Shown here one piece after another: positions 12,526 to 59,400 of a stretch of DNA of 64,000 nucleotides. The notes below the pieces were generated by a model. It had not been told where the DNA came from. It saw only the letters and a program-made list of their open reading frames with translations, and ran no database searches. Source of the DNA: Blepharisma japonicum (lineage: Eukaryota > Ciliophora > Heterotrichea > Heterotrichida > Blepharismidae); the NCBI GenBank assembly GCA_949751835.1, contig CATKHK010000069.1:124001-188000 (forward strand), written 5' to 3'. How positions within the stretch are numbered: position 1 is the stretch's first letter; each line of letters opens with the position of its first letter. The position numbers were made by a program, and so were the translations under genes.

Positions 12526-15500
12526 CTATCTTTCTATTTTTCTAAGCTGACTATTATTCGGTAGAATGCTATTTCTTATGACACCTGCTTTAGAAAGTTT
12601 ATGATGAATCACTTGATATAGAGTTCTAGCAAAAATAAATACAGAAGATAAAGTTTGAACTGCCATAACTATCAAGACAATTGCTACAATAGCGCTCTCA
12701 ACTCCTGATACCATTTCTTGCCCAAGATCAAATAAATAAACTGAGGTAGAGATCATTATAAAGCAAATCAATATTTCAGTAGCTAAATTTGTTATTTGCA
12801 AAATTGGATCATTAAAAGGCCAGAAAAAGAATAAGTGCATAATTGTGATCAATGAAAGAACAATATTAATAGTGACTTCGGTTTGTGGGTATTCTCTTAA
12901 AAATACCAAATTTATTATATAGATAAGTCTTCTTGCAAAAAATACAAAATAATATTGTGTTGCAAGAAGTCCCTTATCATTTCTAAATTCATAAAAAAAA
13001 GTATCAAATAAAGAAGAAAAACTCTTTTCTCTTGACTGAATACGATTTTTATTTTTATAACAAAACCAGAAATATCCAGGAGGAGTGGCTACTAGAAGCA
13101 TATAAACAGCTAAACAAATAATTAGATTAGTAATTTGTGTTACATTTCCGAATTCAGCAGAAACAAATCCGATACTAGCAGCAGCCCCCAATTCAAGATA
13201 GCATTGAATTCAAAATCGCAAATAAAATGAAAATTGATAGCCTTTGAGAGTTTTTGCAAATTTTTTACCAAGTCATCTGTATGAGCATCGTGAGAAAAAG
13301 AAAATTATAGGGAAAACTGATAAAGAAGCTAATATCAGTGTGAAATCATTTCCTTGATTTATTAAGATAAGATCAGAGTCAAATCCAAATTCTTTTGCTT
13401 GAGAGTATGGAGTATTTCCTTCATTTTTATCAATAAAATAGGAAAAGGCATTTGGAAATAAGTTAAAAGAATTTAAATTATTCAAAAATGAGCTCATTTT
13501 GCTAGATAAAGGTATTCCTGATAAAGTTAAATAACTAAGAATTTGTAAGGTATTCATCATGCTTCACAAAGAGCTTGGATTTGGATTTACAATTGATAAA
13601 GCAACAGCTCCAGAAATAGCAGCCTGAGAACCAGCTGATGCTTGTGATGTAACTGACTCAATTGCTGCAGAGTATGGAGCTGGATCATACGAATTTAAAG
13701 ATACTGAAATTTCTGACGAATTCAGCACTCCATTCGAAACTGATCTAGTTTCTTCCAAATTTATAAAGCTGATTGTAGCTAAAGTACCTTTAGAAATTGC
13801 CTTCTCAATATTTAAAGAAATATAATAGCAAGTCTCATTTATCTGCTCAATTTTATAAGAAATTTCTCGATGCTCAATTGTTATTGTAAAATTTGATACA
13901 GAAAGAGTATACAAAAGATTATCAGAAAATGTAAGATATAAAGAATTATCTGATAAAGCTGAAATTTTTGCTGAAAAAGCAACAGATGTACAGTTTGTGT
14001 CTCCATTGAAGCCTAAATTGCAATAGCAGAGATCGGTTTTAAGGCTAGCATTTTCTACACAAGCTGTGCATTTAATAGAAGATTCGCATGTGCTGCATAG
14101 TTTTGGACAAGAATAAAGCATTCCATCTATACCTCTAAATCCACCAGGCCCAACAAGAACACAAGTACTGTTATTTGAAGTGTCAAGAACATAATTTATG
14201 TCACAGATGCATGAATCAGGATTTATAGCAGTTTCTTTACAAGTTATGCAGCCAAAAGGAGAATAATCTATGCAATCTTTGCATAATAAATTATTACATA
14301 GAGAACAAGTAGATCGCCAATCCCTGCAGCTGTTTGGGCATTTTATATTGCAGTGATAACAGACCTTATAGCCTGGCCCGCTCCAATATTCATTTATTTT
14401 GCAGTTAGGAATACATATTTGATTTAATGGACAAACACCACAATTTTCAGTACAAGAAATCGTCGATAAACTATTAACTGGCTTAACAGTATTGAATATC
14501 TGTATGGTATAAACAAAGCCTTGATAATAATTATAAACTGTCTGCGAGTTAAGCTGAGCTCCTATAGACATTACAGTATGATCTCCTTTATCTTGAAAAA
14601 TTCCAGACCCAGCAATCTCATATGTATCAGACAATCCATTTATATAACAAGAAATCATATTATCGCCATTTTGGGTGGTTTCAAATGTAAATTCTATATG
14701 GCTTCATTCATAATTACTAAGAGATTTTTGGCACATAAAAAATAAAGGAGATGAGTTTACTGTCAGAGAGATTGATGGGTTACTGCTTACTAGAGAAATT
14801 AAGAATAATGATGAATAATTATCAGAAATATCATGCTTTGATAATAAAGTACCAAATAAGGTTTCACTATTTAATCATATAGAAATTGTGAAAGTGGATG
14901 GAATTAGAAGCTTTGGGGATGTATAATTTGAATACTCTGGAAGCCTCAAAACTGAAGTTTTTCCGTTAAAATAAAACCCTCTTAAATAAGCTGGGATTGG
15001 GTCATCAACTTCGTAATCTGGATAAAATTGCTTAGATGACCCAGTTATAACTGGAATTGAGTTTGCTTTATCATAAATTACTCCATTAAGGGTATTAAGA
15101 TCCAAATCAAATATCTTTTCATTAACTAATATACACTTATTTCCAGATGGAGAATATCCTAATGAGCAACTGGCTTTACAGAGCCCTGATGAGCTATAAT
15201 ATCCATCAGCACAAGTCAAGCAGTCCAAATAACTAGCTGATGTGCAGGTCTTACAAGAAATATCACATTTCTCACAGTTTTCATTGCTGCTACTCCAATA
15301 ATACATAGAATTACATTGGCAGCTTGTCCCTACTAAGCTTGCGTTTATTTTGCAGGTAATACATGTATTAGTATAATCATCACATATTTCACATATAAGA
15401 TCTTGGCAGAGGTTGCAATTTTTATCAGTTCTTACACAGCCTTTATTTGAGCATCCTGATAAGCAAGCTGTACAACTGCTGCCATCCCAATAGCTATCTA

Positions 15501-18500
15501 TAAAACAGCTATCTAAACAAGTATTAGAATTATCGATAGGACATAAAGAGCATCCACTGCAAAAGCTTGACGTCAAACTACTGACTGCTATTATTTCGTT
15601 ATAGATTTTTAGATCCCAAAGAAAACCATTAAAAAATGATGTCATAGTTGTAGCATCAAGATGGGAAGCTCCAATTGTAATTAAAAATGAGTTTTGCAAG
15701 TCAATAAACCAGCTTGCGTGCTTATCACCTGAAATATCAATATCTGAATTTGTTGAAAATCCGATAATTTGCTGAGGGGTTGAACTGATATCAGAATTTC
15801 CAGAAATAAAATTTCATTGCGACAATGCAACTTCTAAAGAGGATACAGAGCTTGAATAAGTTATTGTAGAAGAATCTTTTAGAGTTAAAGTCATTGATGG
15901 AGACTTGCTTAATATAGAGAAGCTAATATAATTTGTAAACAATCCAGCATTAACTTGTTTAGAAAAAATAACTCCTGTATCAGATATTGGTTTTATTCAA
16001 GCTGATATTATAAATTTGGGTGCAAAAGTAAGCAATTGTGTTGAAGCGCTGGAGTATGGAGGGAGCTGCATGTAAGATGATCCAGTAAAATAGTACCCTC
16101 TATAAATAGTTGCTATAGGATCAGTTGTATCATAATTAGGATAAAATTTATTATCTTTGCCTGTAAGTACTGGAATTTTTGATGCTGAATCTACAACAAT
16201 GTCTTTTATTTGATGTGGCATCATATTAAATACTAAATAGTTTGTATAATTCGGGTCGCTATCACAAATGTTGCCATTAATAACATAACCAGTTGGGCAA
16301 AATGGCATGCATAATGATTGAATTCGATAATAGCCTGATATACATGTAAGGCAGCTATCAAATTTTGGTGTAGAACAGCTTGAACAAATAGAATGGCAAA
16401 GCTCACAACTCTGTGAGCTAGAGACTCATACTGCATTAGGAATACACATACAATGATCTACTGGTTTATAAGCATGTGCAATACAGCTTAAACATTCACC
16501 TGTAAATGTATCACATGAATAGCATTCTTTATCTCTGCAGAGTCTGCATGTTAAGCCATTAACACATCCTTGGCTGCATCCTGATATACAGGTTAAGCAA
16601 CTATCTGGATACTCATTTATAGCACAGGTATTTAAGCATATCAAATTTGAAGGGCAAGTCGAGCAACCCCCATTACATAAAGAATTTGCATAGTCATTAA
16701 GTTCATGCCCATAAGAGTTTCACATCATAAATCTTGCTATAAATCCAATCATCCCTGAAGATCCTAAAGTCTCATCATTTCCAATATAAAGTGTCCCTGA
16801 CAGCGTATCTTTAAAATAAGTCAAAGAAGTGGTAACTATATAATTATTAGCCAAACCGTTTATATAAAATTGTAAAATTGTTTTACCATCATTTTGGACA
16901 TGCCCTGATAAACTTAAATAGTTTCAATTATTTAAAATACTTGAAGAGGCAGATAAAGTTGATGTTGATGAATCGGAAAAAGTGATTGAGAGTGATGGAA
17001 GTCCTGATGAATTTATAATGATTTTAAGAATATCGCTAGATGTATATTTAGTCATCAAAATTCCAGCTGCCAATGGTTTTGCTCATAGAGAAACTGTAAA
17101 AGATGGGGATATCATAATTGAAGAAGATAAACAATTATTTTGGTAAAAATAGTATCCTCTTTTATAGGCAGGGATTGGATCGTGAGTATCAGATCAGTCA
17201 GGATAAGAGTTAGTATTGACTGAGCCTACATTGAAACCAGAAATACTGCTAAGAGAAATATTATCATCTACTTCTAAATTCATCACTAGATCAATGTCCA
17301 CCGAACAAATATTATTAGATGAATCTGAACTATATCTACTCGGGCATTCATCTAAGCATTGCCCAGTTAGAGCAAAAAAATAAAACCCTGGCTTGCATGC
17401 AGTGCATTTTTGATAAGTTATATCCGTGCAATGAGAGCAGCCATTAGAGCATGCTACACATGAAAATCCATCTGAAGAAACCACATAATTAGTATTGCAA
17501 ATACACTGGCCAGGAGCTCCACTTGCATTTTCAACGCATTGAGTGCATTTTCCTGAGCCAAATCCTGTGCAAACGGAACATAATAAATCATCACAAATAT
17601 TGCATGTTCCTGCCCGGACACATCCTTTACTGCATGAATTACAAGCTGAATAAGAACTCCCATCCCAATAATGAGATAAATTGCAAGATCATAAGCAAGA
17701 ATGGCCTAACCCTGCTCCGCATATAAAATTATTAACATAGCTCGAAAAATCACTAATTGGTACATTTCATAGCTGAAGTGTATTAATAAATCCTACAAAG
17801 CCAGAAGTACTACTTTTCCCGATAATTAATTTAGTTGCAGTGAGATCTCTTATTATATAGTTAGAAACGGCTAGGGTTGCAATTGAAGCTCCATTAAGAT
17901 AAACGGCTATATTTGTAGTATCTAAATTGTAGCTGAAAGTATATGACAAATAAATTCAGCTGTTTAATGAGCTGCTTGCTGATAAAGTTTGAGTGGCAAC
18001 TGCTTGTGAAGGATTTTCCATATTAGCTGCTATGCTTCCTGTAGAGGATAGAGAAATTATTTGTGTCTGCTTTTCTAGCCAATCTCCCTGCGTTATTATA
18101 TAAATCCAAGATCCAATTGAAAAACTATGGGAAAGCAAAACGCTGTCTGATGATAATAAATACATGGTTCCGTCGAAAAATAAGCCACGATTATATGCAG
18201 GAATAGGGTCATATGACTCAGGAGTATTAAAAAAACGAAAAGATGCGGAGCTAGTTCCTGTTGTAAAAATCCCATATGAGCCTTGAAAATCTGTATTGAA
18301 AGTCTGATCAATCACAGCAGTTGATACAGATGAGCAAGAAGCACCAAATCCATATGGACACTCGGCTAAGCAGACATTGCCAACTAATTGATAAATTCCT
18401 AAGCAAGCTGAGCACTCAAAATAAGTTGTTTTTAAGCAAGCCGAACAAAGAGCATCACAAAGATCACATGTCTGAGATGAAGCTACCCAAAAAGCATTTG

Positions 18501-21500
18501 CAGCACAAGTGCATCCTCCAGATCCATCACTAACTGCATTAGTAATACAAGTCAAGCATGAATTTCCTCCTGAAAACTCTGTGCATGTGGCACATTCTTT
18601 CGTCTTGCATAGCCTACAAGTATCAGAATTTCTGCATCCCTTATCACAAGTCACTATGCAGTCAGTGCAAGCTGAACCGTTGTTATATTTAGATATTGGG
18701 CAACTATCTAAACAATTAGAATCGCTCGGGCATTTTGCGCAGCTACTTAAGCATCCTGACGTTTTAAAGTCATTTAAAGCATTATTATTTTGACTGTAAA
18801 TTTTAACATTCCATAAAAAGCCATTAAATCCTGCACTATAATGCCCTATATATAGATTTCCTGAGTGGCTGTCTTGTAGATAAAGAGGAGCGGATGTAGT
18901 AGAAGTAGCTGGAGAAGTTTCGTCAATATAAGATGTAATAGTTATTGTCCCGTCAGAATTAATTTTGCAGTCAAAAGAAATGTAAAACCATCCTCCGACA
19001 AGAACACTAGAAGTGCCTGCGACTGATATAGTTGTTGATGAATCTGATAAATAAAGAGAGATTTGTGGATAGCTTGATAATATTTTTACTTGTAACATAG
19101 TTGTTGTCGAAATAAATTTTGATATTACAAAACCGGTTGCTAAAGGTCTTATTCACAAAGAAATAGAAAAAGAAGGAGAAAACATAAAACTTGTACTTAA
19201 ATAGCTGCTGGAAAGGTAATAGTAGCCTCTTAAATATGATGGATAAGGATCGTTAGTATCATAGTTTGGGTAAGAGTTAGTATTTGATGCACCTATATTT
19301 ACACCAGAAATAGTGTCTAAAAGAATTACATTTGAGAAAATAATTGAATATGTTGTAGAAGAAAGATCACAGCTATTAGTTCCTGAGTTTTGAGTATACC
19401 CTCATGGACATTCACTAAGGCATTGTATATTAAGAAAGTAATATCCTGTTTGACAACTTGTACACTGATAATACCCACTTCCAGTACAAGTTTGGCATCC
19501 TGTTGAGCACTGGACACATGAAAACCCATCATTAGAAACCCCAAACCCTGAATTACAAGCACAATTTGTTGGATTTTTTGACGCATTACTAACGCAGGTT
19601 GTGCATTTTCCAGATTCAAATCCTGTACAAGCAGCGCATAAAGGATCATCACAAATATTACAAGAGACAGCTCTTCTACATCCTTTAGCACAAGAATTAC
19701 AAGCTGCATAAGAGCTTCCACTTTTATAAGTCGCCATATCACATGATCATAAACATATAGCCTTATTTCCAGATGAGCAAAATGTAAACCCATTTATAAT
19801 TGTTGTAAAATCTGTAATAGCTACATTTCAAAGCTGAAAATAAAAGATAAATCCAACAAAGCCTGAGGTGTCACTTTTTCCTAGCTGTAAATTTGTAGAG
19901 GCATCATCTCGATAAATTTTTCCAGCAACTGTGTAAGACCCAGCTGAGACTCCATTAATATAAGCAGAGAGTACAGAAGCATTTGAAGTATAATATATCG
20001 TAATTGATAAGTAAGTTCAGTCTGTAAATGAAGAAGTAGGAGAAAAGGTCTCATGAGATGATGCTTGGGCTGTATCATCCATTAAAACACCTATTATACC
20101 AGTTGATCATAATTTAAGCTTAGTTTGTTTTTGCAAAAAATCTCCATCGGTGATTACATATATCCAAACTCCTATTGAAAAACTGTGAGAGATGTAAATA
20201 GACTGAGAGGATAATAGGTACATGTTGCTATCAAAATAAAGGCCTCTTAAATAAGTAGGAATTGGATCAACAGTTTCGGGTGATACAAAGGGTTGGTATT
20301 TACTAGAGTCTGCTCCTGTAGTAAAAGTCCCATATCCCCCTTGAAAATCTGTATAAAAGCATAGGTCAATTACGACAGTTGAAACTTGAGAGCAGGAAGA
20401 TCCGTAGCCAAATGGACAACTATTAAGGCATAACACTCCTACCAGCTGTTTACCCGAAGTACAAGAAGTGCACTCAAAATAGGTAGTTTGCTTACAAACA
20501 GCGCAAAGTGCATCGCACAATTCGCAGCTTTCTAAATCAGCTGACCAAAAAGCATTATTTTTGCATTTGCATCCATTTGACCCATCAGATTCTGCATTTG
20601 CTATACAGCTTGTACAAGACCCAGAAAAAGAAGTGCAACTATTACATTCCTTAGTTTTGCACAGTCTACAAGTGTCTGTAGACCTGCAGCCTTTGGTACA
20701 AGTTGATTTACAGTTTATACAGGAAGAGCCATTATTGTACTGTGATAATGGGCAAGAATCTGGACAATTGTGGTCAATTGGACAGGCTGAGCATGATAGG
20801 GAACAGCTAGAAGTTGAATAATCACTAAGTTGTAGAGTATTTAAACTATATATAATAATATCATATAAGAATCCGATAAAACCACTGCTCAAGCTAGATT
20901 TTGTTCCGATATATAAGGAGCCTGAGCTGCTGTCTTGGAAATAAGCGACGTTAGTAGACGAGCCAGAGTCTTTAGTTTGGGAATTTAAATATGAATTTAT
21001 AGTTGTTTTATAGTCCGTGTCAATTTTTCCCGTAAATGAGATAAAGTTTCAGCTATTTAATGTATTTGCAGATAAAGTTATTGAAAAGGTCGAAGAGTCT
21101 CTCAAAATAAGTGAAAGTTTGGGATTCCCAGAGCTTAAAATTTCAAGGCAAAGTATTTCATTTCCAGAAATGGTTTTAGAGACTATTGTTCCAAAAGTAG
21201 TTGGGTAAATTCAAATGGAAATTGTAAAATTTGGTGCAGTTACAACTTGGGCTGAGAGATAAGTTGTGCCAGTAAAATAGTATCCTCTAAGATAGGCAGG
21301 ATATGGGTCATTGGAGTCATATGTTGGATAAGTGTTTGTATTGAGAGATCCTACTGTTACTCCTGAAATTGAATTAAGCATTATTTGATCATAAAAAATT
21401 ATATTTAACCCAGTGAATGAAGTAAAATCACAAGTTTTTGTGGATGAGTTTTCGGTATATCCAGTTGCACAATTTGAGACACAAAAATTAGTATTATAAG

Positions 21501-23628
21501 AAAAATAGCCAGAGTTGCAGGCAGTGCATAAATAGTAAGATGAGCCTGTACAATGAGCACATCCTGTATAACAAGCTGAGCATAGAGCTTGATTAATAGG
21601 CTGATAATAACCAGAATTGCATTGGCACGGAGACCCAGATGCATTAGAAATACATGAAGTGCAACTGCCTGACCAAAATGATGAGCATTGAGAGCATAAA
21701 AAATCATCACAAATATAGCAAGATGCTACTCTAGTACAGCCAGTTGTACAAGTACCTAAACATGATTGACATACAGATCCATCATAATATTGAGTATAAT
21801 CACATGGCCATAAAATTGATACAGATCCTCCTGACAATGTGTTTATATTGTAATAGGCAGTAAAATCACTAATTGTAGTTTGCCATAGCACAAAGTTAGC
21901 TATAAATCCATTAAAGTTTGTTGAACCTTTACCAATGTATAGTGTTCCTCCTGAATGCAACCTAAACACATAATTTGTTACAGTTGTTGATGCTCCAGCA
22001 ACTTTGTTTAGATATGGAGTCACTGTAGTTATTTTATTCGCAAACCCAACGGTATATGAAATATAGCTCCATACGTTTGGAGTGATAGATTGTGAAGCAG
22101 AGCTAGTTGTGGACGACGCATCCCATTTTTCTAAAGAAAAATTAATTCCACTGGAATCAATAATGAGTTTGCCTGAGCTATGACTGATAATAGTTCCGCT
22201 AATAGCATAAACTCACAAACCTATACTTCAGGTGTTAGAGAGATTTATAGATCCACTTAAAAACTGATTTGAGTTGAAATAAAACCCTCTATTTTTTGCT
22301 GGATATGGATCTGAGCTTTCTGGAGAATTCCAAAAATTATAGCTTGAAGAACTTGTACCTGTAATCACCGCTGCTGTACTGTAGCTTCCAGCAAATGAAC
22401 CTGTAAAATCAGCTGTTATAACTGCTGTAGAAACAGCTGCGCAATTTCCAAAGCCGTATGGGCAAGTATACAAACAAATTCCTCCAATCAGAACTTTTGT
22501 ACTAAGGCATGCTGTATTTGACCAAGTTTGAGTACAAGCTGTAGCAATATAATCGCAGCATCCTGGAACGATACCTGTAGTGCATGATGTGCACATTGAT
22601 ACAGAGTATCCATAACAACTAATACAATCTAATGTATAGCAGATACTACAACTACCTCCTCTAATGCACCAAGGCCAAGTAGGACAGCTAGAATCGCAAT
22701 TCTGGCAAGCAGATCCATCTCAATATTGGTTATCAATGCATTCTCTCTTGTTTGCCATTTCTGGAAAGCTTGAAGTCTCAGTATCAGCTCTTGCCTGGAG
22801 TCAATAAATAAATCCCCTAAAGGAGTTTGCTGGATTATTATATCCAATAGTTCATATATAAGATACCCCACCAACAAATTTTGCTTCAGAGCTGCTTATT
22901 GTAGATGAGCCAGCCCCTGATCCATTTATAAAAAAAGATATCGTTGCTTCTGTACAAGAAATTTGTTCAAGACCTATAGAGGCTTTATGCCATGATGACG
23001 TGTAGCTTGAGGTGCTTGTTCCTGATATTGACTTAGAATTACTACTTGTATCATAAATTGTCCCACTAAATTTATAAACCCCTGATGAGTCGGCTCATAT
23101 TCTTAAATATTGGGTTGAGCCTGAAATGACATTTAAAATTTCTCCACTTGCAAGAGGTTTTATCCATAAGTTTAAAGTAAAGTAAAGGGCTGGGGTATAG
23201 TGTTGATCACTAGTCATGCTAGAAGTTGTAGCAAAATAAAAGCCACGATCTACTGTTGGCAGCGGGGAATTATGAGTTGGAGAGTTGTATGAGATAGAAC
23301 TTGGGTTGAGGAATTTTTCATTAGAGTTAGCAGAGTTTGAAATATAAGTGGCTGTCAAGTCTTGCATGCTTGTAAATTGCAATTCAAATAAAATTGCATC
23401 ATTTGCACTGGGTGCATCGCATGAATTTCCTGAGCCAGGGAAACTTCACGAAGGAGAATCGAAATTTGAAGGGCATGAATTTGCACAAACTTTATCGTCA
23501 ACCAGATAATATGAATTTGCGCATTTACAAAACCAAGAGCTAGAAATTGAACTGCCTGATGGACAGCAATCGGGAGTGTTGAATGAATAGGTCAACAAAG
23601 TCCTGGTGAAATAAATAAAAAAATTCAT
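12526..23628 (-). CDS. Giant LamG/Cys-rich multi-pass membrane protein, paralogue B (9 modules)
   Basis: The largest member: 3700 residues in one unbroken frame with TGA as Trp, ending in TAG. Signal peptide MNFFIYFTRTLLTYSF. Nine LamG plus Cys-rich modules are marked by the RGxYF motif near 23250, 22295, 21296, 20256, 19236, 18194, 17166, 16106 and 14984, about 1.0-1.1 kb apart. Modules 4 and 6 (VSTxVIDxxFxTDFQG-YGxFTTG) are alike, as are 5 and 7, so a two-module block (4-5) looks duplicated relative to D, E and F. After module 9 come Cys-rich repeats, then a beta-rich domain (SDNSLYLTFSDNL, CYYISLNIE, SSEISVSLNSYD) and the membrane domain (about 3340-3690). That domain includes SLWSIMNTLQILSYLTLSG, an FFFSRCSYR end, ELGAAASIGFV, TQYYFVFFARRLIYIINLVF and VTINIVLSLITIMHL. 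Residues after the last span are basic and probably cytoplasmic. Surface adhesion or sensing is inferred from architecture only. Confidence 0.88.
17460..18780 (-). repeat. Block nearly identical to part of gene C
   Basis: From about 17460 to 18780 gene B matches gene C at 27358-28670. Within 17494-17645 I find a single difference over about 150 bases, and the rest of the block differs by only a few percent. Elsewhere B and C are more diverged, so this points to recent duplication or gene conversion of modules 6-7. Confidence 0.75.
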
Positions 23629-23662
23629 CTTCTATTTATAAGGAAATAGAAAAATTCTCCAA
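23629..23662 (-). promoter_or_regulatory. TATA-like element upstream of gene B
   Basis: Read on the minus strand, GAATTTTTCTATT is followed by TCCTTATAAATAGAAG and then ATG. Gene C has the same two blocks (GAATTTTTTCTATT, then TCCATTATAATAGAAT) directly before its ATG. Conservation in otherwise diverged flanks supports a promoter with a very short leader. Confidence 0.5.
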
Positions 23663-24739: not shown

Positions 24740-27700
24740 CTATTTTTCAATCTTTCTTATCCGAATATTCTTTGGCTGAGTCCCATTTCCCATGATGCCT
24801 TCTTTAATGAGCTTACTGCGAATTAATTCATACAGAGTTCTAACAAAAATAGCTAAAGAAATAATTATTTGAACTGTAACCGCTGTCAAAACAGTTGCCA
24901 CAATGATACTCTCAACTATTGTTACTATTTCTTGCTCAAGATTAAATAAGTATACTGAAGTGGAGATCATGATTATTCCAATCAATATTTCAGTTATTAA
25001 ATTGGCTAATTGCAAAATTGGGTCCTCAAAAGGTCAGTAAATTGCTAAAAATATAATAGTTACTAATGAAAGAACAATATTAATAGTTACTTCTGTTTCT
25101 GGGTAATCTCTTAAAAATACCAAGTTTATTATGTAAATGAGCCTTCTTGCAAAAAATACAAAATAATATTGTGTTGCAATAAATCCTCTATTTTTTCTAA
25201 ATTCATAGTAAAAAGTATTAAATAAATATATGAAGCTCTTTTCACATGATTGAATACGATTTTTATTTTTATAGGAAAATAATAAAAATCCAGGGGGAGT
25301 GATTATAATTAAAGCATAAACAATTGCACAAATAATAAGATTGGTAATTTGTGTGATATTTTTATGCCCTGCTGTAACAAATCCGATACTAGCAGCAGCT
25401 CCTAATTCAAGATAGCATTGGATCCAAAATCTCAAATAAAATGCATATTTATAATTTTTGAGATTTTTTGTGAATTTTTTACTAATTCATCTATGTGAGC
25501 ATCGTGAGAAAAATAAAATTACAGGAAGAGATAATAAAGAAGCCAGTATAAGTGTAAAATCATTACCTTGAATTATCAAGATTAAATCAGAGTCATATTC
25601 AAAATCTTCTGCTTGTGAATATGGCTTATTACCTTCATTTTCATCTATAAAATAGGTAAAAATATTTGGGAAAATGCTAAAAGAGTTCAAATTGTTCAAA
25701 AATGAGCTCATTTTGCTTGATAAAGGTATCCCTGATAAAGTTAAATAACTAAGAATTTGCAAGGTATTCATTATGCTTCATAAACCGCTTGCACTTGGAT
25801 TTATAAATGATAAAGCAGCAGCTCCAGAAACAACAGCCTGAGACCCAGCTGATGCTTGAGATGAGATTGATTCAATTGTTGCTGAGTACGGAGCAGGATC
25901 ATAGGTGTTCAAAGATGCCACGACTTCTGATGAGTTTAATATTCCATTATAAACTGATCTAGTTTCTTTTATATCTAGAAACTCAAGAACAGCAAATGTG
26001 CCTTTAGTAATTGCCTCCTCAATCTTTAAAGAAATATAATAGCACGTCCCATTTATCTTTTCAATTTTACATGAAACTTCTCCTTGTTTTCCTACTTTTA
26101 TAGTAAAATTTGATACAGTAAGATTATTTACAAGATTATCAGAAAACGTAAGATATAAAGAATTATCAGGTAAAACTGAAAGTTTAGCTGCAAAAAGAAT
26201 ATATGTACAAATTGTGGTACCATTATAGCCTAAATTGCAATAGCAGAGATTGTTTGTAAGGCTGGCATTTGATACACAAGCACTGCATTTAGTAAGAGAT
26301 TCGCATGTGCTGCATAATTTTGGGCAAGGATAATACATTCCGTCCTCGCCTCTGAATCCGCCTGCCTCAATAGGAATACAAGTGCTGTTATTTGAAGAAT
26401 CAAGGACATAATTTAGGTCACAGATGCATGAATCTGGATTTATAGCGTTGTCTTTGCAAGATATGCAGCCTGTAGAAGAATAATCTGTACAATCTTTGCA
26501 TAATAAATTATTACAAAGAGAGCATGCGTCTCTCCAGTCTCTACAGCTTTTTGTACATTTCATATTACAATGATAGCAAACATTATAGCCTGGCCCACTC
26601 CAATATTCATTTATTTTACAGTTAGGTATACAGATTTGATTTGTTGGACAAACACTGCAATTTTCAGTACAAGAAATCGTCGATAGACTATTTACTGGCT
26701 TAACAGTATTGAATATTTGTATAGTATAAATAAAGCCTTGATAATAATTATAAACTGTCTGAGAACTAAGCTGGGCTCCTATAGCTGTTGTGGTATAAGA
26801 TCTTTTATCTTGAAAAATTCCCGATCCTTCTATTTCAGATGAATCGAATAGTCCATTTATATAGCAAGAAACTTTATTATTGCTGTTTTGAGTAGTTTCT
26901 AATGTAAATTCTATATGGCTTCATTCATAATTATTGAGAGATGATTGGCTTATAAAAGTTATTGGAGATGAGTTTATTAACAAAGAGATTGATGGCTTAC
27001 TACTTATTAGTGTAATTGAGAATATTGATGAGTAATTATAAGAAATGTCATGTTTTGATAATAAAGCACCATATAATGTTTCGATATTTAGTCATATAGA
27101 AACTGTGAATGTGGATGGAATTACAAGCTTTGGAGTTAAATAATTTGAGTATTCTGGCAGCCTCAAGATTGAAGTCTGACCATTAAAATAGAAACCTCTT
27201 AAATAAGCAGCTATTGGGTCATTAGCTTCATAATCTGGATAGAATTGCTTAGATGATCCAGTTATAGCTGGAATAGAGCCCATTTTATCATAAATAATTC
27301 CATTTAGAGTATTTAAGTTCAAAGAAAATATTTCACAGCCATTAGAACATAGTATGCATGAAAATCCATCTGAAGAAACCACATAATTAGTATTGCAAAT
27401 ACACTGGCCAGGAGCTCCACTTGCATTGTCAACGCATTGAGTGCATTTTCCTGAGCCAAATCCTGTGCAAACGGAACATAATAAATCATCACAAATATTG
27501 CATGTTCCTGCCCGGACACATCCTTTACTGCATGAATTGCAAGCTAAATAAGAACTCCCACTCCAGTAATGAGATAAATCGCAAGATCATAAGCAAGAAT
27601 GGCCTAACCCTGCTCCGCATATAAAATTATTAACATAGCTCGAAAAATCACTAATCTGCACATTTCACAGCTGAAGTGAATTAATAAACCCTACAAAGCC

Positions 27701-30700
27701 AGAAGTGCTACTTTTCCCGATAATTAATTTAGTAGTAGGGAGATCTCTTATTATATAGTTAGAAACAACTAGGGTTGCAATTGAAGCTCCATTAAGATAA
27801 ACAGCTATATTTGTAGTAGCTGAAATGCAACTGAAAGTATATGATAAATAAATTCAGCTGTTTAATGAGCTGCTTGCTGATAAAGTTTGAGTGGCAACTG
27901 CTTGTGAAGGATTTTCCATATTAGCTGCTATGCTTCCTGTAGAGGATAGAGAAATTATTTGTGTTTGCTTTTCTAGCCAATCTCCATGGGTTATTATATA
28001 AATCCAAGATCCAATTGAAAAACTATGGGAAAGCAAAATACTAGTTGATGATAATAAATACATGGTTCCGTCGAAAAATAAGCCACGATTATATGCAGGA
28101 ATAGGATCATATGACTCAGGAGTATTAAAAAACTGAAAAGACGTGGAACTAGCTCCTGTTGTAAAAATCCCATATATGCCTTGAAAATCTGTATTGAAAG
28201 ACTGATCAATCACAGCGGTTGATACTAACAAGCAAGGAGCATCTAATCCATAAGGGCAGCTGTTTAAGCAGACATTTTCAACCAATTGATAACTTCCTGA
28301 ACAAGTTGAGCACTCAAAATAAGTTGTTTTTAAGCATGCTGAGCAAAGAACATCACAAATTTCACATGTCTGAGAAGAAGATGCCCAAAAAGCATTTCCT
28401 GCACAAGTGCATCCACCAGATCCATCACTAACTGCATTAGTAATGCAAGTCAAGCATGAATTTCCTCCTGAAAACTCTGTGCATGTGGCACATTCTTTAT
28501 TCTTACATAATCTGCAAGTATCAGAATTTCTGCATCCCTTATCGCATGCTGCTATACAATTAGTGCAACCAGAGCCACTATTGTATTTAGATATTGGGCA
28601 ATTATCTAGGCAACTAGAATCCATTGGGCATTTTACGCAGTTATTTAAGCATCCTGATGCTTTAAAATCGCTTAAATTGATACATGATTTTTATAGAGCG
28701 TTTTGATAGCATGGTTTTCCTCCCTATAATATGATTGATAAATTAGCGTTTTTTCAAAAAATGTTACACTATTAAAAAAATTTCTCCAAATTTTTAGAGG
28801 ATGGATGCTATCAAAAGCTTTTCGATAAAAAGACCTATAGCGCTTAAAGCATTATTATTTTGACTGTAAATGTTAACATTCCATAAAAAGCCAGTGAATC
28901 CTGAATTATAATGGCCTATATATAGATCTCCTGATTGACTGTCTAGTAGATAAAGACGAGTAGATGTGGTATAAGTAGCTTGAGAAGCTCCGTCAATATA
29001 AGATTTTAGAGTTGTTGTCCCATCAGAATTAATTTTGCAGTCAAAAGAAATATAAAATCATCCCCCAGCAAGCACACTAGAAGCGCCTGTTACTGATATG
29101 GTTGTTAATGAATCTGACAAAAGAAGAGAGATTTGTGGATAGCTTGATAATATTTTTACTTGTAGTATAGCTGTAGTTGATATATATTTGGATATTATAA
29201 AACCAGCTGATGAAGGTCTTATTCATAAAGAAATAGAAAACGAAGGGGAAAACATAAAACTTGTCTTTAAATAGCTGTTGTAGTTATAATAGTAACCTCT
29301 TAAATATGATGGATAAGGATCGTTGATGTCGTAGTTTGGGTATGAATTAGTATTTGATAATCCTACATTTACTCCAGAAATAGTATCTAAGAGAATAATA
29401 TTTGAAAGTGAAATTGAGTAAGTTGTGAAAGAAAGATCACAAATCTTAGTTGATGAGTTTGGAGTGTATCCTGATGGGCATTCTGCTAAGCATATTCCAT
29501 TAAGTAAGTAGTTGCCTGCTTGGCAGCTTGTGCATTGATAATATCAACCTCCAGTGCAAATTTGGCATACTGCTAGACATGAGACACATGAAAACCCATC
29601 ATCAGAGACTCCGTAACCTGGATTGCAAGCACAATTCGTTGGGTTTTTTGACGCATTACTAACGCAGGTTGTGCATTTTCCAGATTCAAATCCTGTACAA
29701 ACAGCGCACAAAGGATCATCGCAAATATTACAAGAGATAGCTCTTCTACATCCTTTAGCGCAAGAATTACAGGCTGCATAAGAGCTTCCACTTTTATAAG
29801 TCGCTATATCACATGACCATAAGCATATGGCCTTATTTCCAGATCCACAAAATGAAAACCCGTTAATAATTGTTGTAAAATCTGTAATAGCTACATTTCA
29901 AAGCTGGAAATAAAATATAAATCCAATAAAGCCTGAGGTGTCACTTTTTCCCAGCTGCAATTTTGTTGATTTATCATCTCGATAAATTCTTTCTGAAACA
30001 TTGATAGATCCAGAAGATACCCCATTAATGTAAATAGTAATGCCTGAGGAATTTGATATGTAATATATGACAATTGATAAATAAGTTCAGCCTATAAATG
30101 AAGAAGTAGGAGATAAGGTTTGTGTGGAAGCTACTTGCAAAGTATCATCCATTATAGCAGTTATTGCACCTGTTGACGATAATTTAAGCCTGGTTAATTT
30201 TTGCAATAAATCCCCATTGGTGATTACATATATCCAAACTCCTATAGTAAAGCTGTGCGATATGTAAATAAACTGAGAGGATAATAAGTACATATTGCTA
30301 TCAAAATAAAGGCCTCTTAAATAAGTAGGGATTGGATCAACCGTTTCAGGGGACACAAAGGGTTGGTACTTACTAGAGTCTGCACCTGTAGTAAAAGCTC
30401 CATATCCTCCTTGAAAATTAGTATAAAAACATAAGTCAATCACAACAGTTGAGACTTGAGAACATGAAGGCCCATAGCCAAACGGACAATCATTAAGGCA
30501 TAGCACTTCTACTAACTGTTTACCTGAAATACAAGAAGTGCACTCAAAATAAGTCGTCTGTTTACAAACAGCACAAAGGACATCACAAAATTCGCACCTT
30601 TCTAAGCCTGGAGACCAAAAAGCATTGGCCTTGCATTTGCATCCACCTGATCCATCAGATTCTGCATTTATTATACAATTTATACAAGACCCAGAAAAAG

Positions 30701-32618
30701 AAGTGCAGCTATTGCATTGCTTGGTTTTGCAAATTCTGCAGGAGTCCAAAAATCTGCATCCTTTGGTACAAGATGCTTTACAATTTACACAGGATGAGCC
30801 ATTATTAAATTGAGATAATGGACAAGAATCAGGACAAGTATGATCACTAGGGCAACTTGAGCAGGGAGAAGCACAGCTAGATATAGAATAATCGCTAAGC
30901 TGCAGATTATCTACATTATAGATAATAATATTATATAAAAATCCTGTAAAGCCATTGCTTAAGCTAGATTTTGTTCCGATATAGAAGGAGCCTGAGCTGC
31001 TATCCTGGAAATAAGCAAGATTAGTAGATGAGCCAGAGTCTTTAGTTTGGGAATTTAAATAGGAATTTATAGTGTATTTATAGTTTGTATCAATTTTTCC
31101 TGTAAACGCAATAAAATTTCAGCTATTTAATGCATTTGCTGATAAAGATATAGAAAAGGCCGAAGAGTCATTCAAAATAAGGGAAAGTTTGGGATTCCCA
31201 GAGCTTAAAATTTCCAGACAAAGTATTTCATTGCCAGAAACCGTTTTTGAGAATATTGTTCCTGCAGCTGTTGGATAGATCCAAGTGGAAATAGTAAAAT
31301 AAAGCCCAGTTACAACTTGGGTTGAAAGATAAGTTGCACCAGTAAAATAATATCCTCTTAAATAAGCTGGATATGGGTCATTGGGGTCATAATTTGGGTA
31401 AGCTAATACATTCGATGACCCTACTGATATCCCTGAAATCGAATCAAGCACTATTTTGTCATAAAAATTTATGCTTAGCCCAGTATTTGAAGTAAAATCA
31501 CAGGTTTTTGTAGATGAATTTTCTGCATAGCCAGTAGGACAATTCGAAAGACAGATATTGTTATTATATAAAAAATAGCCAGAGTTGCATGATGTGCACA
31601 TTGTAACAGAATATCCATTGCAACTAGAACAGCCAAGTGTATAACAATAGCTGCAACTACTTCCTCTAATGCACCAAGGCCAAGTAGAGCACCCAGAACA
31701 AGTTTGGCAAATAGACCCATCTCAATATTGATTATCAACACAATTTATCGTGCTTGCCATTAATGGAAAGCTTGAAGTCGTAATATCAGCCCTTGCCTGG
31801 AGTCAATAAATAAATCCTCTAAAAGAGTTAGATGGGCTATTATTCCCAAGAGTTCATATATATGGTACTCCACCCACAAATCTTGCTTCAGAGCTGTTTA
31901 TTGTAGATGATCCAGCCCCTAATCCATTTATGTAAAAAGATAGTGTAGAATCAGTGCATGAATTTTGGCTAAGAACTATAGAAGCTTTATGCCATGATGA
32001 CGTATAGCTTGATGTGCTTGCTCCTGATATTGAAATAACATTATTACTTGTATCATAAACAATTCCACTAAATTTAAATACACCTGAGGAATCTGCTCAT
32101 ATTCTTATATATTGGGTTGAGCTTGAAAAAACATTTAAAATTTCTCCACTTGAAAGAGGCTTTATTCATAAATTTAAAGTAAAATAAAGAGCTGGAGTAT
32201 AATTTTGGTCACTCATCATGCTAGAAGTTGTAGCAAAATAAAAACCACGATCGATTGTGGGTAGAGGAGAATTTTGGGTTGGAGAATTAAATGAAATGGA
32301 GCCTGGGTTTAAAAATTTTTCATTAGAATTAGCTGAGTTTGCGATGTAAGTAGCTGTTAAGTCTTGAATACTTGTGAATTTCAATTCAAATAAGACTGCA
32401 TCATTTCCACTGGGTGCAACGCACGTATTCCCACTAGACGACGGAATCCCTGAATATGCAACAAAAAGAGAAGGGCACGAGTTAACACAGACTTTGCTGT
32501 CAACTAAATATGAGCTTGAACAATCGCAGTAATTTCCATTAAGCGAACTTCCAGATGGACAACAACTGGGAATTCCGAACGCCAACGAAATCTGGATCAA
32601 ACAAAGCAAAAATTTCAT
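24740..32618 (-). CDS. Giant LamG/Cys-rich multi-pass membrane protein, paralogue C (6 modules, IES-interrupted)
   Basis: Encodes 2568 residues after removal of a 172-bp insertion at 28669-28848; as it stands the gene is frameshifted there. Frame upstream of the insert and frame downstream differ by exactly the insert length modulo 3. Signal peptide MKFLLCLIQISLAFG; stop TAG. RGxYF motifs lie near 32245, 31365, 30320, 29305, 28095 and 27204. By similarity to B these are modules 1, 3, 4, 5, 6 and 9. Module 2 is absent: near 31605 a CTSC stretch of the first Cys-rich region runs straight into the end of the one before module 3. Modules 7 and 8 are absent: near 27335 VSSDGFSC..CSNGC is fused in frame to the head of module 9 (IFSLNLNTLNG). 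The beta-rich domain and membrane tail are intact (about residues 2205-2560). The gene is thus a recombinant, shortened relative of B. Confidence 0.82.
27358..28670 (-). repeat. Block nearly identical to part of gene B
   Basis: Counterpart of 17460-18780 in gene B. It begins close to the fusion with module 9 and ends close to the 172-bp insertion, so both rearrangements bound the shared block. Confidence 0.75.
28669..28848. mobile_element. 172-bp IES-like insertion in gene C
   Basis: The insert is flanked by direct repeats CGCTTAAA at 28669-28676 and 28841-28848, each containing TTAA. Gene B has one uninterrupted copy of this region near 18775. Inside, TTTTGATAGCAT (28701-28712) and its exact inverse complement (28805-28816) form a 12-bp inverted repeat, with a second short pair TTTTTAT/ATAAAAA outside it (28688-28694, 28825-28831). 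Taking out 172 bp restores the frame and the conserved NNNALSDFK segment. There is no GT-AG at the junctions and no coding capacity. This is what a TA-bounded ciliate IES, perhaps of MITE origin, looks like; TTAA is also the piggyBac target. Confidence 0.75.
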
Positions 32619-32654
32619 ATTCTATTATAATGGAATAGAAAAAATTCTTCCAAT
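32619..32654 (-). promoter_or_regulatory. TATA-like element upstream of gene C
   Basis: On the minus strand, GAATTTTTTCTATT is followed by CCATTATAATAGAAT and ATG. It matches the gene B element in order and spacing. Confidence 0.5.
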
Positions 32655-56400: not shown

Positions 56401-59400
56401 ACCATCCCAATAGGTATCTATAAGACAATTATTTAAGCAAATATTAGAATTATCGATTGGGCATAATGAGCATCCATTGCAAATGCTTGATACTAAAGGA
56501 ACAGCTAAAAGTGCATTATAAATTTTCAGATCTCATAAAAATCCATTGAAAAATGAAACTAAAGATGTAGGGCTAGCATAGCATGCCCCAATTGTAATTC
56601 AAAATGAGTTTTCTAAATCAGCCAGCCAGCTTGCACCTAAATCACTTGATGTGTCGCTAAACCCATTTATAGCTAAACTTATAGTTTGCTCAGATGCAGA
56701 ACTTATGCTTGAAATCGTAGATATAAAATTTCATTGAGAAAGGGTAGTCTCTACTAAAGGATCAGAGCTTGTATAAGTTATTGTTGAAAAATCTTTTAGA
56801 GTCAAAGTGAGAGATGGAGCTTTATTTATCAATTCAAGACTGATGAATTTTTTAAATGGCCCATTACTGTCCTGTTTAGAAAAAATAGCCCCTGTATCCA
56901 ATATTGGCATTATCCAAGCTGTTATCACAAATTTTGGGGTGAAAGTAAACAGGGGTGATATAGTACCTGGATAAGGGGGAAGCTGCATATAAGATGACCC
57001 AGTAAAATAGTAGCCTCTATTAATAGCTGGGATTGGATCAGTAGGGTCATAATTAGGATAAAAATTATTATCTTTGCCTGTGAGAATTGGGATATTTGAC
57101 TTTAAATCATAAACAATGTCTTTTATTTGATGTGGCATCAAATTAAATACAAAATGATCTAAATAGTTAGAATCAATGCCACAACTACTGCCATTTAAAA
57201 CATATCCAGTTGGACAAAATGAAACACATATTGATTGAACTAGATAATGGCCTGATATACATTCAAGACAACCATTAAATTTTTCATTAGAACAAGTAAG
57301 ACAAATAGGATTGCACATTTCACAGCTCTGAGAGCTTGGTACCCATATAGCATTTTCAAGACATTTACAATGATCAACTGGCTTATAAGCATTTGCAATG
57401 CAATTTGTGCATTCTCCTGAGAAGGTTGTGCATGATAAGCATTCTTTATCCCTGCAAAGGTTGCATGATAAATTATTAATGCATCCTTTACTACAGTCTG
57501 AGCAAGCTGTGCAGCTATCTGGATATTTATCAAAATCGCATTCACTTAAGCATTGGTGATTTGAAGGACAAACAGAGCAGCCAGCCCCACAAGAAGAATT
57601 ATCATAATCTTCAGCTTGATAATTATAAGAATTAAATATCATTAACCGAGACAAAAATCCATGAAGTCCTGAAGTTCCAAGAGTTTGATCATTTCCTATA
57701 TAAAGAGTTCCTGAAAGAGTATCTTTGAAATATATTAAATTTGAAGTTGCAATATATGTAATAGAAACAGAGTTTATAAAGAGATTCAAAATTGTTTTGC
57801 CATCAGATTGAACTTGTCCTGTGAAGCTTAAAAGCTTTCAGCTGTTTAAAATGCTTGTAGAAGCTGTTAAAGTTTTAGTTGAAGAATCAGAAAATTTGAT
57901 TGAGAGAGATGGATATCCTGATGAGTCTACAGTAATTATGAAGATAGCACTTACAGTGTATTTAGTTACTAAGATTCCAGCTGCGAGTGGTTTAGCTCAT
58001 ATAGAAATTGTAAATGAAGGTGCAATCATTACACTAGATGTTAAATAATTTTTAAATTTAAAGTAGTAACCTCTTTTATAGGCAGGAATTGGGTCATTAT
58101 CATCAAAATTTGGATAATTATTACCATTGTTATTGCCGACATTGAATCCAGAAACTATCCCAAGGTGTATCTTATCTGTTAAATCAAATTTAATCCCTAT
58201 ATTCGACGTATAATCACATTTTCGTAGGACTGTATTTTTACTATAGCCGCTTGGACACTCGCTTAAGCATTGTCCAGTTAAACTAAATAAAAAAAATCCT
58301 GACACACATGAAGTACATTTTTGATAGCTTGCTTCTGTGCATAGAGAACACTCGATAGGGCATGTAGCACATGAAAGTCCATTAGAAGTTAGCCCAAAGG
58401 CAGCACTGCAAATGCACAATCCAGAAGACAAATATGCATTGGCAACGCATTGGGAACATTTTGCTGCTCCAAATCCTGTGCAAACTAAGCATAGTGTATC
58501 ATAGCAAATATTACAATTATTTTCTCTTACGCATCCTTTTGGGCATGAGCTGCAATCTAAGCAAGAAGATTCATTTGGATATTTCGAAAATATGCATTCT
58601 GGTAAACAAGAACCTTTCAGCCCAGCTCCACAAAATGTGTATTCATTCATGATGCTTAGAAAATCAGTAATTCTCACATTTCACAGCTGAAAATAATATA
58701 AAAACCCAATAAATCCAGTACTGCTGCCTTTTCCTAATTGCAATTTAGTGGATTGCTGATCTCTGAAGATCAAACTGGGAAGAGCCTTTGTTCAAACAGA
58801 GCTTCCATTTAAATAATATATAAGAATAGACCCACTTGATGTATAAGCTACAACAATAGATAAGTAGTTTCATTTTTTAAGCGGAGAATTTACTCCTATC
58901 GTTCCGCTTACAGAAGATGTTTGTAAGTTATCTTCAACACCTACATAAACAGCGCCTTTTGTATTCACTTGCAGCTTATTTTTCATATAATATCTCCATC
59001 AGTTACTGCATAACTTCATACACTCATTGAAAAGCTATGTGAAAGATAAACAGAAATTGAGGATAATAAATACATGTTTCCATCAAAATAAAGGCCTCTT
59101 TTATATGCAGGTATAGGGTCAGCAGATTCAGGTGATGTAAAAGGCTGATATGTGCTAAAAGAAGTCCCAGTGGTAAATATTCCATAAGATCCTTGAAAAT
59201 CTATATCAAATAGTTGGTCAATTATCACAGTTGAGACTACTGTGCAAGAAGCTCCGTAGCCATACGGACAGTCATTTAAGCATATGTCGTTTATTATTTG
59301 CATACCAGCAATACATGAAGTACACTCAAATAGAGCATCTCATTTGCAATTTGAGCAAAGTTTATCACAAAACGTACAAGAGCCTGAGTTCCAAAAAGTA

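Follow-up and report, generated by a model that had tools for sequence, protein, structure and literature searches.

What interrupts gene C, a long LamG- and Cys-rich gene whose frame stops inside a short stretch bounded by direct repeats, and could that stretch be an internal eliminated sequence (IES) that was left in place? The gene lies in a window of 64 kb (the whole stretch of DNA analysed, C69:124001-188000), taken from a contig of 256,672 bp (C69) in an assembly of 45.2 Mb in 224 contigs. On the minus strand of this window, very long open frames appear when TGA is read as tryptophan, and CCCTAACA telomere repeats were found at the start of the contig (C69:2) and, among the matches listed, at or near other contig ends. 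The B. stoltei macronuclear genome paper describes the same telomere repeat and the same use of TGA (PMC9942806). Together, the code and the telomeres point to what is apparently a macronuclear Blepharisma assembly.

The features of the locus are collected in Table 1. The first in-frame methionine of the 3' part of gene C is residue 23, and a PDB sequence search with this downstream part returned 0 matches. LamG/Cys-rich genes form a very large family (456 candidate matches in the own genome, 150 of them scored), arranged in clusters, with many matches on C69 and others on C75, C41, C55, C37, C46, C78 and C83; the domain make-up of the family may resemble that of ciliate mating-type or surface proteins.

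Table 1. Features of the interrupted gene C locus and of its closest uninterrupted relative, in window positions.
Feature	Position	Strand	Remarks
Gene C, 5' part	28794..32621	-	Signal-peptide-like start (by eye), Cys-rich stretches, LamG domains; frame stops inside insert
Gene C, 3' part	24740..28690	-	Cys-rich, LamG domains, C-terminal hydrophobic membrane-like stretches (by eye)
Left direct-repeat copy CGCTTAAA, 8 bp	28669..28676	+	Coding strand TTTAAGCG
Insert body, 164 bp, 27% GC	28677..28840	.	Absent from 28 related stretches examined; stop in gene C frame
Left arm, imperfect inverted repeat	28688..28712	+	Perfect core 28701-28712
Right arm, imperfect inverted repeat	28805..28831	-	Perfect core 28805-28816
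Right direct-repeat copy CGCTTAAA, 8 bp	28841..28848	+
Closest paralogous stretch, empty site (gene B, ORF 12526..23631; L022)	18505..19083	-	Uninterrupted

Taking out 172 bp, that is, one copy of the direct repeat together with the insert body, fused the two parts of gene C into a single reading frame, 2569 codons long before its terminal stop, as the sequence-only reading of this DNA had proposed; the other two frames then held 141 and 151 stops, and the joined 7.7-kb frame had no further stop or frameshift. When the joined stretch was searched against its own genome (150 scored of 456 candidates), two of the 150 matches were gene C's own halves, which overlap at query residues 102-105. Each of the 148 others, some of them LamG repeats from elsewhere in gene C, ran unbroken across the insert point as one match and contained no internal stop except TGA. 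Thirty loci were fetched, and the 28 that remained after exclusion of the two halves of gene C, including a further gene C repeat (L039), were read codon by codon; over the 20 or so columns next to the junction, none of the 28 had a stop or more than two inserted residues. At the site itself, gene B reads AAT AAT AAT GCT TTA AAT GAC TTT AAA and the emptied gene C reads AAT AAT AAT GCT TTA AGC GAT TTT AAA, a codon-level match indicating that the insertion was exact and that its removal would leave no footprint. The insert had been said to split a LamG domain. It is a real insertion, but it sits at the C-terminal edge of the domain and does not divide it centrally: the PF13385 match that Pfam gives for gene B stops at residue 198 (profile position 143 of 151), ahead of the site at residue 202. 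Among direct repeats of at least 4 bp in the tested range, 13 removals reopened the frame, the 8-bp repeat being the longest and the next ones 6 bp. Over a wider range, further frame-compatible direct repeats arise by chance, among them one of 9 bp at spacing 502 and one of 8 bp at spacing 457, but removal at these would delete conserved coding sequence.

The two CGCTTAAA copies, confirmed at a spacing of 172, enclose a body that is lower in GC than the flanking 1-kb stretches (27% vs 35-36%). The perfect 12-bp inverted repeat noticed earlier is present and proved to be the core of longer arms, which are identical at 23 of 24 ungapped columns, with additional gaps of 3 nt and 1 nt. None of 2000 shuffles attained their local inverted-repeat score of 17 (shuffle mean 8.5), and 1 of 1713 other 164-bp segments of the window did; the insert folded as single-stranded DNA gave a z of -4.5, with equal stability in 0 of 200 shuffles. 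A scan of 28400-29100 against Rfam gave 0 matches. An age from inverted-repeat divergence was considered and dropped, since the aligned core differs at just one of its 24 ungapped columns. The separate ingredients are not rare: the window contains 1853 pairs of 8-mers at spacings of 60-400, 1276 of them with TA, and six perfect 12-bp inverted repeats with spacers of 40-300. Their combination, a TA-containing 8-mer pair at a spacing of 101-400 with a shared 12-mer inverted at most 45 bp from both ends, by criteria chosen post hoc, occurs once in the 64 kb, at the gene C insert.

If each base matches with probability 0.28, a repeat of TA would be extended to 8 bp by chance with a probability of about 0.0005, and one of TTAA with about 0.006; such low chances make a true 8-bp duplication the likelier source of the repeat and a piggyBac TTAA element a less likely one. 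In piggyBac elements, the TTAA duplication stands directly at both ends. In gene C, the repeat CGCTTAAA is 8 bp long and carries TTAA in its middle rather than directly at the ends, and a piggyBac TTAA origin is accordingly not supported. The IES-like and MITE-like parts of the sequence-only reading fit the empty site, the TA-containing repeat and the inverted repeats, as well as the Blepharisma-type code and telomeres, whereas the idea that TTAA matters as such found no support.

A genome search for other copies of the element, suggested with the same reading, found the gene C locus only: neither the whole element (DNA, E up to 0.001) nor either end of the insert (DNA, its first 64 bp and its last 100 bp, E up to 10) matched anything else in the assembly, a search that covers an apparently macronuclear assembly and not germline-limited copies, and in which a lack of matches does not prove rarity. 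That no second copy was found in the assembly counts against the MITE-like reading, and the mobility of the insert is putative. The element was also compared by short words with the fetched loci, five that cover the element itself being left out; the matches listed were perfect over 11-15 bp, and no second copy was among them. A pattern made from the left-arm core, which has an extra K position missing from the right arm and thus represents the left arm only, occurred at 40 sites in the whole genome with at most two mismatches, vs nine for the reversed control; the two sites with one mismatch both lie inside open reading frames.

Judged from these features, the stretch is probably (about 0.58) a MITE-like IES with an 8-bp TA-containing target-site duplication, retained in the assembled somatic copy of gene C. 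According to this model, a non-autonomous, MITE-like unit of 172 bp would have inserted into gene C in the Blepharisma germline, duplicating 8 bp of target. Because the duplication contains TA, we propose that an excisase could cut the unit out cleanly as an IES during macronucleus formation, leaving one repeat and restoring gene C; in B. stoltei, the candidate excisase is the domesticated piggyBac protein BPgm. The assembled somatic copy carries the insert, so the unit would have been retained at least in the assembled copies. It speaks against this model that the inverted-repeat arms begin 9-11 nt inside the direct repeats, which is unusual for a fresh transposon end; the extreme ends of the insert thus do not form an inverted repeat.

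The B. stoltei IES paper describes about 40,000 IESs. About 70% of these are intragenic, about three quarters have TA-containing terminal repeats, and their inverted repeats are heterogeneous; their lengths show isolated peaks (153, 174, 228 and 389 bp), and some are of MITE type ('MITIES'; PMC9942856). The gene C insert resembles the IESs and MITIES described there in being intragenic and AT-rich, in carrying a TA-containing terminal direct repeat and inverted repeats, in its precise empty site, and in its length of 172 bp, close to the 174-bp peak (PMC9942856); the comparison with MITIES covers their described features. Its direct repeat of 8 bp differs from the commonest terminal repeats in that source, which are TA, TAT/ATA and TATA, and TAA/TTA for the Bogo class (PMC9942856). 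A further difference is that the insert is present in assembled somatic sequence; in MAC-enriched B. stoltei DNA, residual IES retention is given as at most 0.02 (PMC9942856), and this counts against an IES.

Among named elements, Bogo and BogoMITE (Pogo/Tigger; PMC9942856) are comparable to the insert as short non-coding units whose inverted repeats are enclosed by short direct ones, but have a TAA/TTA duplication and a length of about 389 bp, compared with 8 bp and 172 bp here. BogoMITE identity, which requires the terminal-repeat core CTCCGTGAGCGAACAAAA, was rejected, as GTGAGCGAAC is missing from 28601-28900 on both strands. Elsewhere in the somatic assembly there are eight Bogo-core-like sites, each with two mismatches (control 0), none on C69; two of them, C38:415156 and C38:415241, lie close to the telomere repeats of that contig. 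Paramecium IESs, removed by domesticated piggyBac proteins, are TA-bounded, precise and intragenic, and in these three respects the gene C insert is like them. The two differ in their ends: Paramecium IESs have a TAYNR end motif in common (PMC9942856), and the insert ends, read from TA, are TAAAT and TAAGC.

We also surveyed 104 kb (the window and the fetched loci L073-L076) for other frame breaks and found six neighbouring frame pairs, gene C being one. Three, with gaps of 249, 341 and 462 nt, are putative gene boundaries, and one has a gap of 7 nt (51437/51444). In the remaining pair, at 58941-59034 (-), two long frames of LamG genes overlap without sharing a reading frame, in what looks like a single-base deletion in an A run (TGAAAAATAAG), whether a sequencing error or a real frameshift. 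Pieces of piggyBac transposase (DDE_Tnp_1_7) were seen in several frames at C214:4909-5954, C9:271572-272170 and C5:276928-277562, many with internal TAA or TAG; longer copies on C6 and C86 lack such stops.

The stretch could instead be a recent MITE-like insertion that is never excised and has freshly broken gene C in this strain, an alternative that deserves to be taken seriously even though we hold it doubtful. The insert is carried by the assembly, and no empty allele of the gene C locus was found among the scored matches, the best other match being 82% identical, as such an insertion would lead one to expect. The 2569 codons free of any other stop or frameshift speak against it, as does selection on the gene. 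Between gene C and gene B, dN/dS was 0.25 (bootstrap 0.22-0.29), estimated from five repeat-rich genes aligned with MAFFT; A, D and E are absent from this alignment over part of gene C, and repeats may be mispaired. Downstream of the insert it was 0.30 (0.251-0.361), far below 1 and somewhat higher than the 0.21 (0.18-0.25) upstream, with dN equal (0.124 downstream, 0.125 upstream) and dS differing (0.41 and 0.59). Nonsynonymous to synonymous changes downstream were 82:73 on the C branch and 45:63 on the B branch with outgroup E (P 0.08), and 77:78 and 38:55 with outgroup D (P 0.19); the C branch downstream compared with the C branch upstream gave P 0.085 (outgroup E) and 0.38 (outgroup D). 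The nonsynonymous excess, which would suit a fresh break, is thus a non-significant hint of relaxed constraint downstream of the insert. These values are consistent with gene C having been functional for most of the time since the B/C split, and the intact joined frame and dN/dS set only a limit on how long gene C can have been broken.

An unusually long spliceosomal intron, spliced from the mRNA, appears improbable. The earlier statement that the stretch has no intron signals was too strong: when 31 GT-AG pairs were tried, with donors at 28900-28781 and acceptors reaching to about 28641, four reopened the frame, among them 28834-28660 (175 nt), which yields NALSAI-ASGC. All four, however, lose the DFK encoded at the site, which matches the DFK of gene B and which removal by the direct repeats keeps, and an intron would require both the direct and the inverted repeats to be coincidental. 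Most B. stoltei introns have a length of 15 or 16 bp (PMC9942806), and one of that size cannot span the 103-nt gap between the frames. Slighter still is the chance of an assembly artefact, for example micronuclear reads in the consensus: the assembly is in 224 contigs and includes a 12-kb contig, C214, with broken transposase pieces, but the rest of gene C is undisturbed, and micronuclear reads would still make the insert a genuine IES.

On the preferred reading, a MITE-like IES retained in gene C, the phenomenon is a known one, not new in kind, of which this insert is a good example. If true, gene C would offer, at a single locus, a clean case of a transposon-like insert with a target-site duplication that includes the TA needed by the excisase, the situation for which the legend of Fig. 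6B in PMC9942856 proposes that a transposon with an excisase submotif in its target-site duplication can be removed without a footprint. The known sequence of the empty site also makes retention measurable, by PCR or from existing reads. It is a long shot that excision is facultative and that the insert thereby switches one protein of the large, clustered LamG/Cys-rich, membrane-type family on or off, heritably and in the soma; were this so, sister cells would differ in the surface proteins that they make.
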